64,000 bases of DNA from Cellulomonas hominis (GTDB lineage Bacteria; Actinomycetota; Actinomycetes; Actinomycetales; Cellulomonadaceae), in NCBI RefSeq assembly GCF_014201095.1, contig NZ_JACHDN010000001.1:1860001-1924000 (forward strand), written 5' to 3'. Of this stretch, positions 2-62,340 are shown piece after piece. The first letter of the stretch is position 1. Every line of letters begins with the position of its first letter. The notes under the pieces are model-generated. The model saw nothing but the letters and a program-made list of their open reading frames with translations, made no database searches and was not told where the DNA came from. Both the position numbers and the translations under genes were made by a program.

Positions 2-280
2 CCGCTCACCGGGGCCGAGGCCGACGCGCTGCGGTCGATGATGCGTGCCGTCGTCACCGAGGGTGGCGGGGACTTCCTGCAGGACGTGCCCGGGGCCGAG
101 GTCATCGCGAAGTCCGGGACGGCGCAGTACGGCAGCGGTGCGGACCTGCAGAACCACGCGTGGATGATCGCGGGGTACGGGGACCTGGCCGTCGCGGTGT
201 TCGTGGAGACCGGGGACTTCGGGTCGACGACGTCCGGGCCGCTGCTCGAGGACTTCCTGCGGGCGGTGCCGCAGGGCTGA
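2..280 (+). CDS. Penicillin-binding protein transpeptidase, C-terminal end (partial)
   Basis: The gene enters from outside the window and only its last 92 residues are visible. They carry AKSGTAQ, which fits the KTG-type box (K-S/T-G) of the penicillin-binding transpeptidase fold, with K at visible residue 37. It is followed by the usual strand pattern NHAWMIAGY and VFVETGDFG seen in class B or PbpA-like enzymes. Such proteins cross-link peptidoglycan on the outer face of the membrane. The reading frame ends at TGA 278-280. Whether it is PbpA, FtsI or another class cannot be decided because the SxxK and SxN motifs lie outside the window. Confidence 0.85.
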   Translation, partial: PLTGAEADALRSMMRAVVTEGGGDFLQDVPGAEVIAKSGTAQYGSGADLQNHAWMIAGYGDLAVAVFVETGDFGSTTSGPLLEDFLRAVPQG

Positions 281-551
281 CGGGTGCACCCGGTGGAGTG
301 CCCGGCTGGACCGGTGGAGTGGCGCCCGGCGGGGCCGCGACGGCGCCGGTCGTCGCCCGCGCGGGTGCGCGCCGGGGCGTCCGCCGGCCGGCGTCCCCGG
401 GCCGGCTGAACCTGTTCGGGGGCCGCTGGCCTGCGACTTCATCAGGTCTGCGCCGTTCGCGCCGTTTGTCCGATTTCGCCCGAGTGGGTGAAATGGGAGT
501 TCTGTCCGACTGATTCACCCGTGACCCCTTCCGTCAGGGTGACGCCGGGCC
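281..551. other. Intergenic region, no gene seen
   Basis: No reading frame with a plausible start and ribosome binding site was found between the penicillin-binding protein stop and the riboswitch. A GC-rich self-complementary core (CGCCGGCCGGCG, 382-393) flanked by GGGG and CCCC could form a hairpin and end the upstream transcript. It has no T tract and no real loop, so I do not call it a terminator. Confidence 0.4.
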
Positions 552-557
552 TACAGT
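529..557 (+). promoter_or_regulatory. Possible promoter of the riboswitch transcript
   Basis: TACAGT at 552-557 fits the actinobacterial -10 pattern TANNNT. It would place transcription initiation near 563-565, just ahead of the aptamer. TTCCGT at 529-534 lies 17 nt upstream but is a poor -35 element. The call rests mainly on position relative to the riboswitch. Confidence 0.35.
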
Positions 558-562
558 CAGAG

Positions 563-642
563 CCGTCAGCGACAAGGGCAAACCCTCCGCGAGGAGGGGA
601 CGCAAAGCCACGGGACCCCCGCAGGTCAGCCGGGCTGCCGAA
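563..642 (+). promoter_or_regulatory. Cyclic-di-GMP-I (GEMM-I) riboswitch aptamer
   Basis: The conserved GEMM-I blocks occur in order. AGGGCAAACC (575-584) is followed by a stem CCCTCC/GGAGGG (583-588 with 593-598) capped by the GNRA tetraloop GCGA (589-592). GGACGCAAAGCC (598-609) follows at once, then a variable hairpin, and a terminal stem GGTCAGC/GCTGCC (about 624-639). This is the known fold in which the tetraloop docks to a receptor and c-di-GMP binds at the three-way junction. The Shine-Dalgarno-like AAGGA (645-649) lies directly after the aptamer, so control of translation initiation on the ORF at 656 is the simplest model. Whether ligand switches expression on or off cannot be read from the sequence. 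Confidence 0.93.
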
Positions 643-655
643 CGAAGGATCTGCC

Positions 656-829
656 ATGGAACAGCGCGGCTTCTACGAGCCGGCCGAGCGCGACCGCACC
701 GGCGCCGAGCTGCGGCCCGACGGTGTCCGCTCCGCCACCCGCCTCTCCTCCTGGTCCCGCATCGCGGCGTCCCTCGCCACGCACGGCGACCACGTCCCGA
801 CGCAGCGGGAGTGCACCGCCGCGTCCTGA
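656..829 (+). CDS. 57-residue protein under c-di-GMP riboswitch control
   Basis: The ATG at 656 sits 6 nt after AAGGA (645-649), and the frame runs 57 codons to TGA 827-829. The product starts MEQRGFYEPAERDRTG and is polar and charged. It has one cysteine (residue 53), no signal peptide and no membrane segment. I recognise no domain. It is the only gene downstream of the c-di-GMP aptamer, because the next gene lies on the opposite strand with its stop codon 4 nt away. The riboswitch therefore serves either this small protein or an RNA function. The start is well supported by ribosome binding site spacing; the function is unknown. Confidence 0.7.
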   Translation: MEQRGFYEPAERDRTGAELRPDGVRSATRLSSWSRIAASLATHGDHVPTQRECTAAS

Positions 830-833
830 GCCG

Positions 834-3356
834 CTACAGCTCGCCGACGCGCTGCAGGTACCGCATCGCCGCCCAGCCGACGGGGATGCGGAGCCAGTAC
901 GTGAGCACCCGGAACAGCACGGCGACCGACGTCGCGACGCCGGGGTTCACGCCGACCACGGTCAGCGCGCCCGCGAGCGCGATCTCGGTGGTGCCGATGC
1001 CGCCCGGCGTCGGGGCGATCGACCCGGCGGTGTTGCCCGCGAGGAACACGATCGCGACCTGCACCAGGGACAGCTCCTGGCCGAACGCCCGCAGGCAGAC
1101 CTCGAAGGCCAGGATGTAGCCGAACGTCGTCAGCACGTTGCCGGCCAGGCCCAGCGCGAGGCGCCACGGCTGCCCGACGATCTCGATGAGACGCGGCCAG
1201 GTCTGCTGCAGCGTGGGCAGCGTCTTGGCGGCGACCCACTTGCGCACCATCGGCACGAGCAGCGCCGAGGCCACGAGCGCGGCCAGGATCCCGATCGCGA
1301 TGACCACCGCGGGGGAGATGGTGAACCGCTCGAGCTGGTTCGTCCCCGACGCGACCGACAGGCCGAGCAGCAGCAGCACGGTCACGAAGAACTGGGCGAC
1401 CTGCACCAGCGCGACCGTCGCGGTCGCCAGCGAGGCCGACGTGCCGCGCCGGGTGAGCAGCCGCAGGTTCAGCGCCGCCGGACCGATGCCCGCCGGGGCG
1501 GCCAGCGCGACGAACGTCGCGGCGGACTGGGCGATCGTCGCGCGCCACAGCGGCAGCTTCACCGGCGAGAACGCCACCAGCGACAGCGCCGCGCCGAACA
1601 GGGACGCCATGCCCAGCGCGAACGCCAGGACGCTGAGCCGCCAGTCGGTCGAGCCCAGGGCGTCGAGGATCGTCTGCAGGTTGATCGACGTGAGGACGAC
1701 GATCACCGCGGCGGTGGTCAGCAGGATCGTCAGGACGGTCCGCGCGCCGAACCGGATGAGCTGCACGGGCTCGACGTCGGCCTCGGGCAGCCGGGCGACC
1801 AGCGCCGACCGCAGCTCGGCCAGCACCTCCTTGTGCGCGCGCAGCTCCTCGCGGGTGCGGCGGGGGAGGGTGATCGTCTGCAGCAGCGGTCCGATCGCGG
1901 CGATGTCGGCCTCGGGCAGCACGGCCACCGCGGACTCCAGGGCGCGCGCCGGGCCGACGCGCAGCGCGAGGAGGGCGACCATCTGCGTGCGGTCCATCCG
2001 CTGCGCGAGCTCCGAGGACGCGACGTCGCCCTGGTCCCAGCCGACCAGCCACACCTCCGGGCGCTCGCGGTCGCCGGAGACGAGGATGACGTCGGCCGTC
2101 AGCGCGCGGTGCGCGAGGCCCGCGTCGTGCGCCGTGCCGAGCTGCCCCCAGATGCCCTGCAGCACCTCGTCGGTGATGGCCTCGGGCTCGAGGTCGGACA
2201 GGGGCGTCGCGTCGGGCACCCGGTCCTGGACCAGGATCATCGAGGAGTCGGCCTCCGCGATGCCGCGCAGCGCGGGCGCCCGGACCCCGGCCCGGGTCGC
2301 GGTGTACGAGAGCAGCGCGGCGCGCTCGGCGGCCTGCCGCAGCGACACCACGGAGCGCCCGTCCAGGCCGCGCAGCCGCAGCGAGCGCCACAGGCGGGTG
2401 AGGACGCCGACCACCTGGCGGTCGCCGTCGAGCACGAGCACGTCGAGCTGCCGGCCGTCCTCGGTGGTCATCTCGTACACGCGGTTGTCGGTGTACCGGA
2501 GCACCGCGCGGGCGGCGGGGGTGCCGACGGCGTCCGCGTCCGGGTCCTCCTCGTCCTCGTCCGGCACGCGCTCCAGCAGGGCCGGCCGCCAGCCCGCGCG
2601 CCGGATGCCGGCCACCAGGCTGGCCCCGTACGCGCGCTCCGACTTCACGCCGGACACGTACCGGACGCCGAGGCCGGTCGCCCGGCCGATCAGCAGCGCG
2701 ACCGCGACGCCCGGCAGCGAGACGCCCGCCGTGATGACCATGACGCCGATCGCGACCCACACGAGGTTCCAGGACCACGCCACCGTCCGGCGCCGGGTGC
2801 GGGGCCCGGTGGCGGTGAGCAGCGCGGCGATGAGGGCGATGTACCCCGGGATCGTCAGCGTGAGCTCGCCGCGCAGGCGCACCGACAGCCCGGCGACGAG
2901 CTGGTCCGACCCCAGGTGCTCGACCAGCCACGCCACGGTCGCCGTCACCAGGACCGCGAGGATCGCCGCGACGGACGCCTCGATCATCTGGCGACCGAGG
3001 CGCCGGATCGCCAGCTCCGCCAGCACCGCGACCGGCACCAGGTACGTCACGACCGTCTCGAGCAGCGCGACCGGGACGATGAGGATCTGCCCGAGCAGCG
3101 CGGCGAAGCCCTGCACGTCCTCCGCGACGCCGGTCGTCGTGTTGTGGGCGTAGGTCGCCAGCACCATGACGGCCACCGCGCCGAGCAGGCTGAGCACGAC
3201 GCCGAGCAGGTCGCTCGGGTGGTGCACCCGCACCTCGGGGGTGTCCAGCACCTGCGGTCGCGTCAGGCCGTCCGCCGGACGCGGGTGGTGGGCACCCGGG
3301 GCGGGCCCGTCGGGTCGACCGGGCGCCGCCGGCGCGCTGGTCGAGGCGTCGGGCAT
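834..3356 (-). CDS. Flippase-like (LPG synthase transmembrane/YbhN family) membrane protein with pseudokinase-like domain
   Basis: This protein of 840 residues has several membrane segments in its first 230 residues. A soluble middle part (about 240-500) resembles a protein kinase fold, and the C-terminal multi-helix domain (about 520-835) is typical of the lysylphosphatidylglycerol synthetase transmembrane/UPF0104 family, including AAPAGIGPAALNLRLL and APTPGGIGTTEIALAG. In the kinase-like part the catalytic loop reads AHRALTADV, so the HRD aspartate is alanine and phosphotransfer is unlikely. Family members are thought to move or modify lipids across the membrane; the substrate here is unknown. 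The ATG at 3356 is preceded 7 nt upstream by a -10-like TAGACT (3364-3369, minus strand), which suggests a leaderless transcript. Confidence 0.8.
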   Translation of the reverse strand: MPDASTSAPAAPGRPDGPAPGAHHPRPADGLTRPQVLDTPEVRVHHPSDLLGVVLSLLGAVAVMVLATYAHNTTTGVAEDVQGFAALLGQILIVPVALLETVVTYLVPVAVLAELAIRRLGRQMIEASVAAILAVLVTATVAWLVEHLGSDQLVAGLSVRLRGELTLTIPGYIALIAALLTATGPRTRRRTVAWSWNLVWVAIGVMVITAGVSLPGVAVALLIGRATGLGVRYVSGVKSERAYGASLVAGIRRAGWRPALLERVPDEDEEDPDADAVGTPAARAVLRYTDNRVYEMTTEDGRQLDVLVLDGDRQVVGVLTRLWRSLRLRGLDGRSVVSLRQAAERAALLSYTATRAGVRAPALRGIAEADSSMILVQDRVPDATPLSDLEPEAITDEVLQGIWGQLGTAHDAGLAHRALTADVILVSGDRERPEVWLVGWDQGDVASSELAQRMDRTQMVALLALRVGPARALESAVAVLPEADIAAIGPLLQTITLPRRTREELRAHKEVLAELRSALVARLPEADVEPVQLIRFGARTVLTILLTTAAVIVVLTSINLQTILDALGSTDWRLSVLAFALGMASLFGAALSLVAFSPVKLPLWRATIAQSAATFVALAAPAGIGPAALNLRLLTRRGTSASLATATVALVQVAQFFVTVLLLLGLSVASGTNQLERFTISPAVVIAIGILAALVASALLVPMVRKWVAAKTLPTLQQTWPRLIEIVGQPWRLALGLAGNVLTTFGYILAFEVCLRAFGQELSLVQVAIVFLAGNTAGSIAPTPGGIGTTEIALAGALTVVGVNPGVATSVAVLFRVLTYWLRIPVGWAAMRYLQRVGEL

Positions 3357-3536
3357 GAGGTGGAGTCTAGGCAGCGGCGGCCCCGCTGAGCGGGTCCTCA
3401 GGCCCTCCGCGGCGGATTCCGTCCTCGAGGATGAGGGCGCGCCGCCGTGCCTCCGTCGCGAGGATGACCCCCGGGGTCTAGCGTGACCGCAGGGAGGCGG
3501 GCTGGCCCGCGGCACGCTCGAGGACGGGGGGCGCTC

Positions 3537-61002: not shown

Positions 61003-62340
61003 TCAGGCCGCGCCCAGCACCGCCAGCGACAGCAGAGTCTGGAGCGTCGTCCGCACGGTCCGGTCGTCCGCGGGAAGCGTCGACTCGAGCGTGACCACCC
61101 ACGGCGCCCGCGCGAGCTCGATCTGCCGCATCCCGCTCACGTGCAGCGACGACGTGCCGCCGCGCGCCACGACGACCGGCCCGTCCCCGTCGGGGCCCTC
61201 GGCGCGCGCGACCACCCACCCGGAGCCGCCCATCGCCTCGGTCACGGCGGCGGCGAGCGCGCAGACCCGGGGCAGGACGGCCGGGCCGGTGGCGGCGAGC
61301 GCGGTGACGCCGGCGGACACGGCCCGGCCGAGCACCGCCCCGGGGTCGTCCGCCCGGTACTGCCGCGCCCGCGCCGCCGCGTGGCTGCGCTTGGCGTGGT
61401 ATTGCGCGGCGTCGGCCCGGCGGAACAGCGAGCGCGGCGTCGGCGCCGCGGACAGCGAGCCCCGGGCGGAGGACGCGATCCCGTAGGAGATCGACGCCCC
61501 GTACGGCAGCGCGGAGTCGCCGACGGTGGCGTCCACGACCTGCACGACGGTGGTGCGCGGGATGCCGCAGGTGACGATGCAGAACTCGTCGCCGCCGATG
61601 CGGGCGGCGGTCGACCCGGGCAGCCCGCTGCTCGCGCGACGGAGCACCCCGGCCACGGCGCGGAGCAGCTCGTCGCCGGCGTCGTGCCCGAGCTCGTCGT
61701 TGACCCGCTTGAGGCCGTCGACGTCGCACATGACGATGCAGGTCTCGTCGCCCGAGTCGATCGCGGCCTGCGCCGCCTCGTCCGCGACCCGGCGGGTGCT
61801 GAGCCCGGTCAGCGGGTCGTCCGAGACGAGGTGCCGCACCTGCTCCGCGAGGTCCAGCCGGGCGATGTGCGCGCCGACCAGGGCGCCGAGCACCTCGCCG
61901 CGGGCCGCGTCGTCGGACCCGAACGGGGCCGCCCGCTCGTCGCGGACCGCGCACAGCACGCCCCACAGGTCGCCGTTCACGACGACCGGCGCCACGAGCA
62001 CCGGCCGGGTGCGCAGGGGGTCGGCGCCCGGCGCGCCGCGCCAGGTCTCCCGGGTCCGGGCGAGCGCGCGCACGGCCTCGCCGTCCTTGAGGGCGTCCTC
62101 CGCGGCGGCTGCCTCGTCGGTGGGGTCGGCGACGAGCACGCGCCACTCGTCCTGCTCGACGCGGGCCAGCGCGGCGACCCCGGCGGCCAGCACGTCGCGC
62201 GCCGCGACCACCCCCGCCTCGTGGACCTCGGCGAGCGTCAGGAGGTCCCCGAGCCGGTGCGCGAGCAGGGCGAAGTGCCGGGCGTCGTCCCCGTCGCCGC
62301 GGGGTGCGCTCGTCCGGGCCGGCGGCGGTGCGTCGGTCAC
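61003..62340 (-). CDS. GGDEF-domain diguanylate cyclase with GAF-like sensor
   Basis: The 445-residue protein has an N-terminal GAF-like domain (about 25-165), then a GGDEF domain (about 170-330) with DDPLTGLSTRRVADEA and an intact active site RIGGDEFCIV (residues 249-253). A further domain of about 110 residues is not recognised. It should make c-di-GMP from GTP. The inhibitory I-site RxxD expected five residues before GGDEF is replaced by PGST, so product inhibition is probably absent. The GTG at 62340 is the natural start. No membrane segment is visible, so it senses an internal signal. Confidence 0.9.
   Translation of the reverse strand: MTDAPPPARTSAPRGDGDDARHFALLAHRLGDLLTLAEVHEAGVVAARDVLAAGVAALARVEQDEWRVLVADPTDEAAAAEDALKDGEAVRALARTRETWRGAPGADPLRTRPVLVAPVVVNGDLWGVLCAVRDERAAPFGSDDAARGEVLGALVGAHIARLDLAEQVRHLVSDDPLTGLSTRRVADEAAQAAIDSGDETCIVMCDVDGLKRVNDELGHDAGDELLRAVAGVLRRASSGLPGSTAARIGGDEFCIVTCGIPRTTVVQVVDATVGDSALPYGASISYGIASSARGSLSAAPTPRSLFRRADAAQYHAKRSHAAARARQYRADDPGAVLGRAVSAGVTALAATGPAVLPRVCALAAAVTEAMGGSGWVVARAEGPDGDGPVVVARGGTSSLHVSGMRQIELARAPWVVTLESTLPADDRTVRTTLQTLLSLAVLGAA

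Follow-up and report, generated by a model that had tools for sequence, protein, structure and literature searches.

What does a class-I c-di-GMP riboswitch control at a locus where the only co-directional gene within its reach codes for 57 residues? The question is raised by a 64-kb window (the window being the whole stretch of 64,000 nucleotides analysed) of the Cellulomonas hominis genome, a single contig of 4,489,147 bases. The best explanation, which we regard as modestly probable, is that a translational class-I c-di-GMP riboswitch governs a small protein with a regulatory part in a c-di-GMP circuit of BldC and WhiG. The features on which the argument depends are as follows.

2..280, plus strand: penicillin-binding transpeptidase (PF00905, Pfam match), C-terminal part, upstream and co-directional
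529..534, plus strand: candidate -35 element TTCCGT, followed by a 17-nt spacer (by eye, from the window sequence and the leaders of relatives)
552..557, plus strand: candidate -10 element TACAGT (by eye, from the same sources)
568..643, plus strand: class-I c-di-GMP riboswitch aptamer (RF03167, 68.5 bits; G20 = 577, A47 = 604, C92 = 638)
645..649, plus strand: Shine-Dalgarno sequence AAGGA, directly 3' of the aptamer
656..829, plus strand: gene for the 57-residue small protein (ATG at 656, stop codon 827-829)
834..3515, minus strand: gene for an LPG_synthase_TM protein (PF03706, Pfam match), a syntenic neighbour and no target of the riboswitch

A sequence-only reading of the locus had described a GEMM-I aptamer with a GCGA tetraloop and a GGACGCAAAGCC block ahead of a small ORF with a good ribosome binding site, the next gene being on the opposite strand and ending 4 nt further on. 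This description is borne out. In the Rfam scan the sole match above the gathering score in the whole window is RF03167 (c-di-GMP-I-GGC) at 568-643 of the plus strand, which scores 68.5 bits where 59 is the cut-off (E = 4.3e-14), and the P2 stem with its GCGA loop and the GGACGCAAAGCC block are both present. The ribosome binding site ends a few nucleotides before the ATG, and the convergent gene leaves a gap of 4 nt after the ORF. The small protein is thus the only possible co-directional target of the riboswitch within the window.

The proposed covariance check against RF01051 came out in part: the aptamer is matched above a gathering score, and its best label is RF03167 instead. The consensus of RF03167 has a G at position 47, where the window has an A (A604), and the "GGC" in the name of that family presumably refers to positions 20, 47, and 92. 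With conserved class-I positions taken from PMC3764141 and mapped onto the window by ourselves, the pocket carries G20, A47, and C92, which is the canonical set for c-di-GMP. A47 is found in all 113 readable aptamers from 115 distinct contexts, the pattern used to select these placing no constraint on position 47. Because G20, A47, and C92 are present, with A47 and not the consensus G, the window aptamer is, by its base identities, of the canonical c-di-GMP class-I kind even though its best Rfam label is RF03167. The aptamers of relatives match the covariance models of either RF03167 or RF01051, the latter being the best match in 4 of the 18 relatives of one batch; in 12 near relatives, the aptamer stretch compared is identical in 10 and differs only at position 20 in the other two. 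The riboswitch itself is ordinary in kind, and from its pocket it would be expected to respond to c-di-GMP.

That the window riboswitch senses another cyclic dinucleotide, for example 3',3'-cGAMP, is a reading that draws on the A found at position 20 in four related loci (L004, L007, L209, and L210) and on the binding of cGAMP by a G20A class-I aptamer mutant, as reported in PMC7288161, but the window aptamer carries the canonical c-di-GMP set and the C. hominis genome contains 13 GGDEF matches, and we consider this reading very unlikely for the window. The four loci with A20 all have their aptamer ahead of the small ORF, and a change of ligand is possible in these few Cellulomonadaceae. One of the 13 GGDEF matches lies within the window, at 61381-61818 of the minus strand.

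The ORF behind the aptamer was examined across 12 near relatives, which together give a pN/pS of 0.37, or 0.31 with the Jukes-Cantor correction; the differences per first, second, and third codon position are 0.128, 0.081, and 0.264, which amounts to a third-position excess, and length changes occur in whole codons. For six of these sequences, all frames were compared, and pN/pS is 0.32 in the frame of the ORF and 1.86, 2.22, 1.41, 0.43, and 1.41 in the other five, the value of 0.43 belonging to an antisense frame. By these comparisons the ORF at 656-829 is a protein-coding gene under frame-specific purifying selection. The suggestion that the product might be a regulatory RNA does not agree with this pattern of conservation, which follows the reading frame. 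A related possibility, that the product is a short RNA or regulates the convergent gene in antisense, with the ORF being incidental, has in its favor the gap of only 4 nt, across which readthrough would be antisense to that gene. We judge it highly improbable, given the frame-specific selection, the whole-codon indels, and the retention of the protein family at 14 loci where the convergent neighbor was not found in the fetched flank. A leader peptide or attenuator was also considered; as the ORF of the window has no co-directional gene behind it, this was rejected there.

Neither Pfam nor NCBIfam gives a match for the window protein. The ORF had been called an orphan, and this has to be revised: a profile search finds 88 homologous proteins, none with a Pfam domain, and relatives of 38-63 residues are present in 86 of 200 Cellulomonadaceae genomes. 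Those of the 88 that carry an organism name are assigned to Cellulomonas, Actinotalea, Pengzhenrongella, or Cellulomonadaceae, all of them as "hypothetical proteins", and the named close relatives of the ORF are from Cellulomonas species. In the sequences searched here, the family is found only in Cellulomonadaceae. An alignment of 50 sequences shows M1, P48, and Q50 to be invariant and W33 and A37 nearly so. AlphaFold2 predicts a single helix at residues 23-42, which appears amphipathic by eye, with lower confidence elsewhere (mean pLDDT 69.4); the N-terminal part is predicted at low confidence only. The proteins end in a C-terminal tail of the form [VIL]PxQ(R), and tail counts on the 56 ORF loci described below are partly circular, as a PxQ or PxP tail was among their selection criteria. 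An ssrA-like degron was considered and set aside: 26 of the 50 distinct proteins end in AA, but the tmRNA tag of the genome is ADNKRTDFALAA, and the window protein ends in AAS.

The association of the ORF with the aptamer extends well beyond C. hominis. RF03167 matches occur in 96 of the 200 Cellulomonadaceae genomes and the ORF, as found by profile, in 86, all of which are among the 96; the remaining 10 aptamer genomes are without an ORF match. The aptamer precedes the ORF in 47 of 49 distinct loci examined, which derive from two sets of 30 and 20 with G164 common to both. In the first set, aptamer motifs lie within 130 nt upstream of the ORF in 30/30 loci, and in the second, an Rfam match is found in 18/20 fetched loci. 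Only L224 and L225, from two genomes, depart from this; their profile matches are weak (E = 7.5e-4 and 8.6e-4; for L224, 6.5e-5 in a smaller search set) and lie inside frames of 308 and 445 residues, without an aptamer. Conservation of the small ORF beside the aptamer in related genomes had been set as the test that could refute the earlier proposal, and the ORF is found conserved. Because the pair is conserved in relatives, its occurrence in the window is more than chance.

For a broader view of aptamer targets, 115 distinct aptamer contexts were chosen by a sequence pattern, which 12 of the loci L001-L144 fail; six of these were read separately. The 115 comprise 56 ORF loci (36-70 residues, a PxQ or PxP tail, and no VAV), 41 bldC loci, and 18 that were dropped, namely longer targets and the short ORFs L020, L118, L120, L122, L126, L129, and L144. 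As read, the aptamer has further targets, among them response regulators, secreted proteins, and proteins with GGDEF or EAL domains. At L120, L122, and L126, from another family of the order, the aptamer is followed by an ORF of 34-36 codons that ends in HE; its end runs into the first codons of a response-regulator gene, and it may be a coupled leader peptide. At L085, L129, L144, L114, and L117, aptamers stand ahead of a small domain gene with a GGDEF gene behind it and, at L117, ahead of an EAL gene (by eye), an arrangement in which feedback on c-di-GMP metabolism is possible.

The layout of the window leader bears on how the riboswitch would act. TAATGT, TACTGT, or TACAGT is found by eye at about the same place in the leaders of many relatives, and transcription from the candidate promoter would probably begin at the 5' strand of P1, so that the RNA would start at the aptamer itself and have the ribosome binding site directly behind it. 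The aptamer ends 12 nt before the start codon, and translational control is favored because this short distance leaves no room for a terminator. When ligand-bound, a closed P1 would mask the ribosome binding site, and c-di-GMP would then lower translation of the small protein.

In folding calculations, forcing P1 closed makes the Shine-Dalgarno sequence less accessible in 35/51 ORF loci and 28/41 bldC loci, with mean accessibility going from 0.55 to 0.47 and from 0.49 to 0.35, respectively; for the start codon, it goes from 0.63 to 0.55 in ORF loci and from 0.49 to 0.54 in bldC loci. The extended pairing between P1 and the Shine-Dalgarno region has an energy of -5.59 kcal/mol in native ORF loci, -5.41 with swapped flanks, and -3.73 when shuffled (bldC loci: -5.62, -5.45, and -3.85 kcal/mol). 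As native pairing is hardly stronger than that with swapped flanks, support from covariation is weak. When folded freely, the window leader is unexceptional (z = -0.91). We favor an OFF switch, in which c-di-GMP represses, as somewhat more probable than not; given the swapped-flank results and the start-codon results of the bldC loci, this sign is weakly supported.

A search of the C. hominis genome with RF03167 alone gives two matches. The second precedes, elsewhere in the genome, the gene of a 74-residue BldC-type protein, closely similar to proteins that carry the name BldC family transcriptional regulator, and a bldC-type gene stands behind the aptamer in 41 of the 115 contexts of the fetched relatives. 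A gene that regulates development in Streptomyces, bldC, is thus seen downstream of a c-di-GMP riboswitch in unicellular relatives; in the literature searched by full text, no paper joins c-di-GMP, riboswitch, and BldC. The regions upstream of the aptamers were also compared with the BldC repeat AATTCGGAC, taken from PMC5859096. Two sites of the window resemble it.

468..476, plus strand: GTCCGATTT, one mismatch to the reverse complement of the BldC repeat
504..512: a weaker BldC-repeat-like site with two mismatches

Upstream sites with at most one mismatch are present at 9 of 42 non-redundant ORF loci (3.5% of shuffles), 7 of 22 bldC loci (2.8%), and 2 of 18 other loci (1.7%). The enrichment at the ORF and bldC aptamer loci is suggestive only, because BldC sites are described in PMC6428758 as not predictable bioinformatically. 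By eye, CGGGTGA and TTCACCCG words recur upstream of aptamers, at 464-520 of the window and in the leaders of many aptamer loci.

These results could also mean that the small protein is a BldC-side partner, which would use a common [VI]PxQ(R) tail to compete with BldC for the binding target of that tail, the riboswitch setting the amounts of both. In keeping with this, one of the two RF03167 aptamers in the genome serves bldC and the other the ORF, a [VI]PxQ tail is present in 111 of the 120 best listed BldC hits, and the BldC-like repeats are enriched upstream of both genes. However, the tail is absent from the BldC dimer contacts published in PMC5859096, as far as the available portion of that paper goes, the likeness covers few residues and has no significance in the profile search, and the small protein lacks a helix-turn-helix: no winged helix-turn-helix (wHTH) domain is found, there being no Pfam match and the model consisting of a single helix. 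We regard a role of this kind as possible, if on the unlikely side.

Our preferred reading, a small regulatory protein of a BldC/WhiG circuit, depends further on the distribution of a sigma factor. A TIGR02479 (FliA_WhiG) protein above cut-off is present in 112 of the 200 genomes. It is found in 85 of the 86 genomes with the ORF and in 27 of the 114 without; one genome, G155, has the ORF and no above-cut-off sigma, and 87 have neither. For the aptamer, the corresponding counts are 94 with both, 2 with the aptamer only, 18 with the sigma only, and 86 with neither. By genus, the ORF occurs in 5/12 WhiG genera and 0/13 others (Fisher p = 0.015) and the aptamer in 7/12 and 0/13 (p = 0.0016), both tests being uncorrected for phylogeny. 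The identity of the sigma was read from G173, whose TIGR02479 protein matches 6pfj_A, an entry listed as RNA polymerase sigma factor, with 292 bits; its score is 161 bits against FliA and 105 bits against 7lq4_A, a chain that bears the name WhiG and aligns over just 76 residues. We take 6pfj_A to be the WhiG of the Streptomyces RsiG complex. In both C. hominis and G173, the sigma gene lies in a xerC - sigma - tsf context (gene names by our reading). From these matches, we infer that the above-cut-off class is WhiG-type in all 112 genomes. Flagellar FliA had been considered as the linked sigma and was dropped, since the above-cut-off protein of G173 matches 6pfj best and flagellin was found beside the other, below-cut-off sigma gene.

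In G173, which carries an ordinary ORF as well (L216), an aptamer lies directly before the WhiG-type sigma gene (L091/L166). In G115 (L103), the aptamer is followed by an additional family ORF and, after 5 nt, by a FliA/WhiG-family sigma gene below the cut-off; the order of aptamer, additional ORF, and sigma gene is that of L103, L107, and L174 (genomes G115 and G102), and as G102 (L107) has the same ORF as L103, the two are counted as one event.

A short motif recurs in the three proteins. The N-terminal extension of the WhiG-type proteins contains [VIL]PxQR in 9 of the 11 Cellulomonas loci read and IPRQQ in the other two, C. hominis included, while in other genera [VIL]PxQR is seen in 1 of 11 sigma loci. 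As background, the motif appears 15 times in 136,808 residues of the gene-like frames of the loci; of the 14 background frames listed, 9 have a VPFQRLG or LPFQRLG block and 2 are WhiG-type. The profile of the ORF family against WhiG or BldC tails gives nothing significant (best E = 0.8), and the 4-5 residues common to the tails of the ORF proteins, WhiG, and BldC are, at the level of sequence, a lead.

The link to WhiG might instead reflect the ancestry of motile lineages, the small protein acting elsewhere in motility or the envelope, for example on the flagellum or the convergent membrane protein. The LPG_synthase_TM gene is indeed a conserved neighbor, convergent in 42 of 56 ORF loci, in another orientation in none, and not found in the fetched flank in 14, and flagellin is present in all seven Cellulomonas genomes tested. 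But the neighbor differs elsewhere, as at L116, where the adjacent frame was read as gyrB/parE-like, and G161 and G176 lack both the above-cut-off sigma and the ORF despite having flagellin; G155, the third Cellulomonas genome without this sigma, keeps the ORF. As G155, G161, and G176 all have flagellin without an above-cut-off sigma, the sigma link is not simply one to flagella. In a look for the empty site in G161 and G176, no close homolog of the neighbor gene was found (matches of 34% and 28% in G161, none in G176). We would give a motility or envelope role a limited chance, similar to that of the BldC-side partner.

Taken together, the co-occurrence with WhiG-type sigma factors, the shared riboswitch, and the tail motif suggest that the small protein belongs to the BldC/WhiG regulatory circuit and that c-di-GMP would set its amount. 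In this reading, it would be a short regulatory adaptor that docks through its helix and [VIL]PxQ(R) tail on a partner in this circuit, most likely a WhiG-type sigma factor. A more specific proposal, which we consider rather doubtful, is that in Cellulomonadaceae it is a c-di-GMP-controlled anti-sigma factor or co-factor of the WhiG-type sigma, mimics the N-terminal tail of WhiG, and stands in place of a c-di-GMP-binding RsiG or an exported FlgM. If this is true, one riboswitch class would govern bldC, a WhiG-binding peptide and, in one genome, whiG. According to PMC4255298 (2013), the role of WhiG in simple, motile actinobacteria was then unstudied, and the control of WhiG in these organisms was open; the small-protein family is a concrete, testable candidate. 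A riboswitch dedicated, at nearly every locus examined, to a small-protein family unnamed in Pfam or NCBIfam, together with its pairing with bldC and WhiG, is new as far as our searches of the literature go.

Among known systems, the closest to the window riboswitch is the c-di-GMP-I riboswitch (GEMM-I, RF01051; clan CL00126), with which it shares the fold, the tetraloop and receptor blocks, and G20, A47, and C92; it differs in having no terminator room before the start codon, a Shine-Dalgarno sequence directly 3' of the aptamer, and a single 57-residue protein as its target. RF03167 is the best Rfam match, above the gathering score, whereas A47 replaces the G of its consensus. The BldC family, small MerR-like wHTH regulators, is found behind the same riboswitch family in Cellulomonas and has a similar short [VI]PxQ(R) tail, but the small protein is without a helix-turn-helix. 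FlgM, the anti-sigma factor of FliA, is likewise a short partner of a FliA/WhiG-family sigma, by analogy only, whereas nothing in Pfam or NCBIfam matches the small protein. RsiG, the c-di-GMP-armed anti-sigma factor of WhiG, has the c-di-GMP-binding coiled-coil motif E(X)3S(X)2R(X)3Q(X)3D, which, by eye, does not occur in the window protein. The WhiG-bearing actinobacteria in question encode no FlgM-like protein according to PMC4255298 (2013), and RsiG itself binds c-di-GMP (PMC8325347). The small protein too would couple c-di-GMP to WhiG, but as a different, shorter protein whose amount c-di-GMP would set through the RNA.
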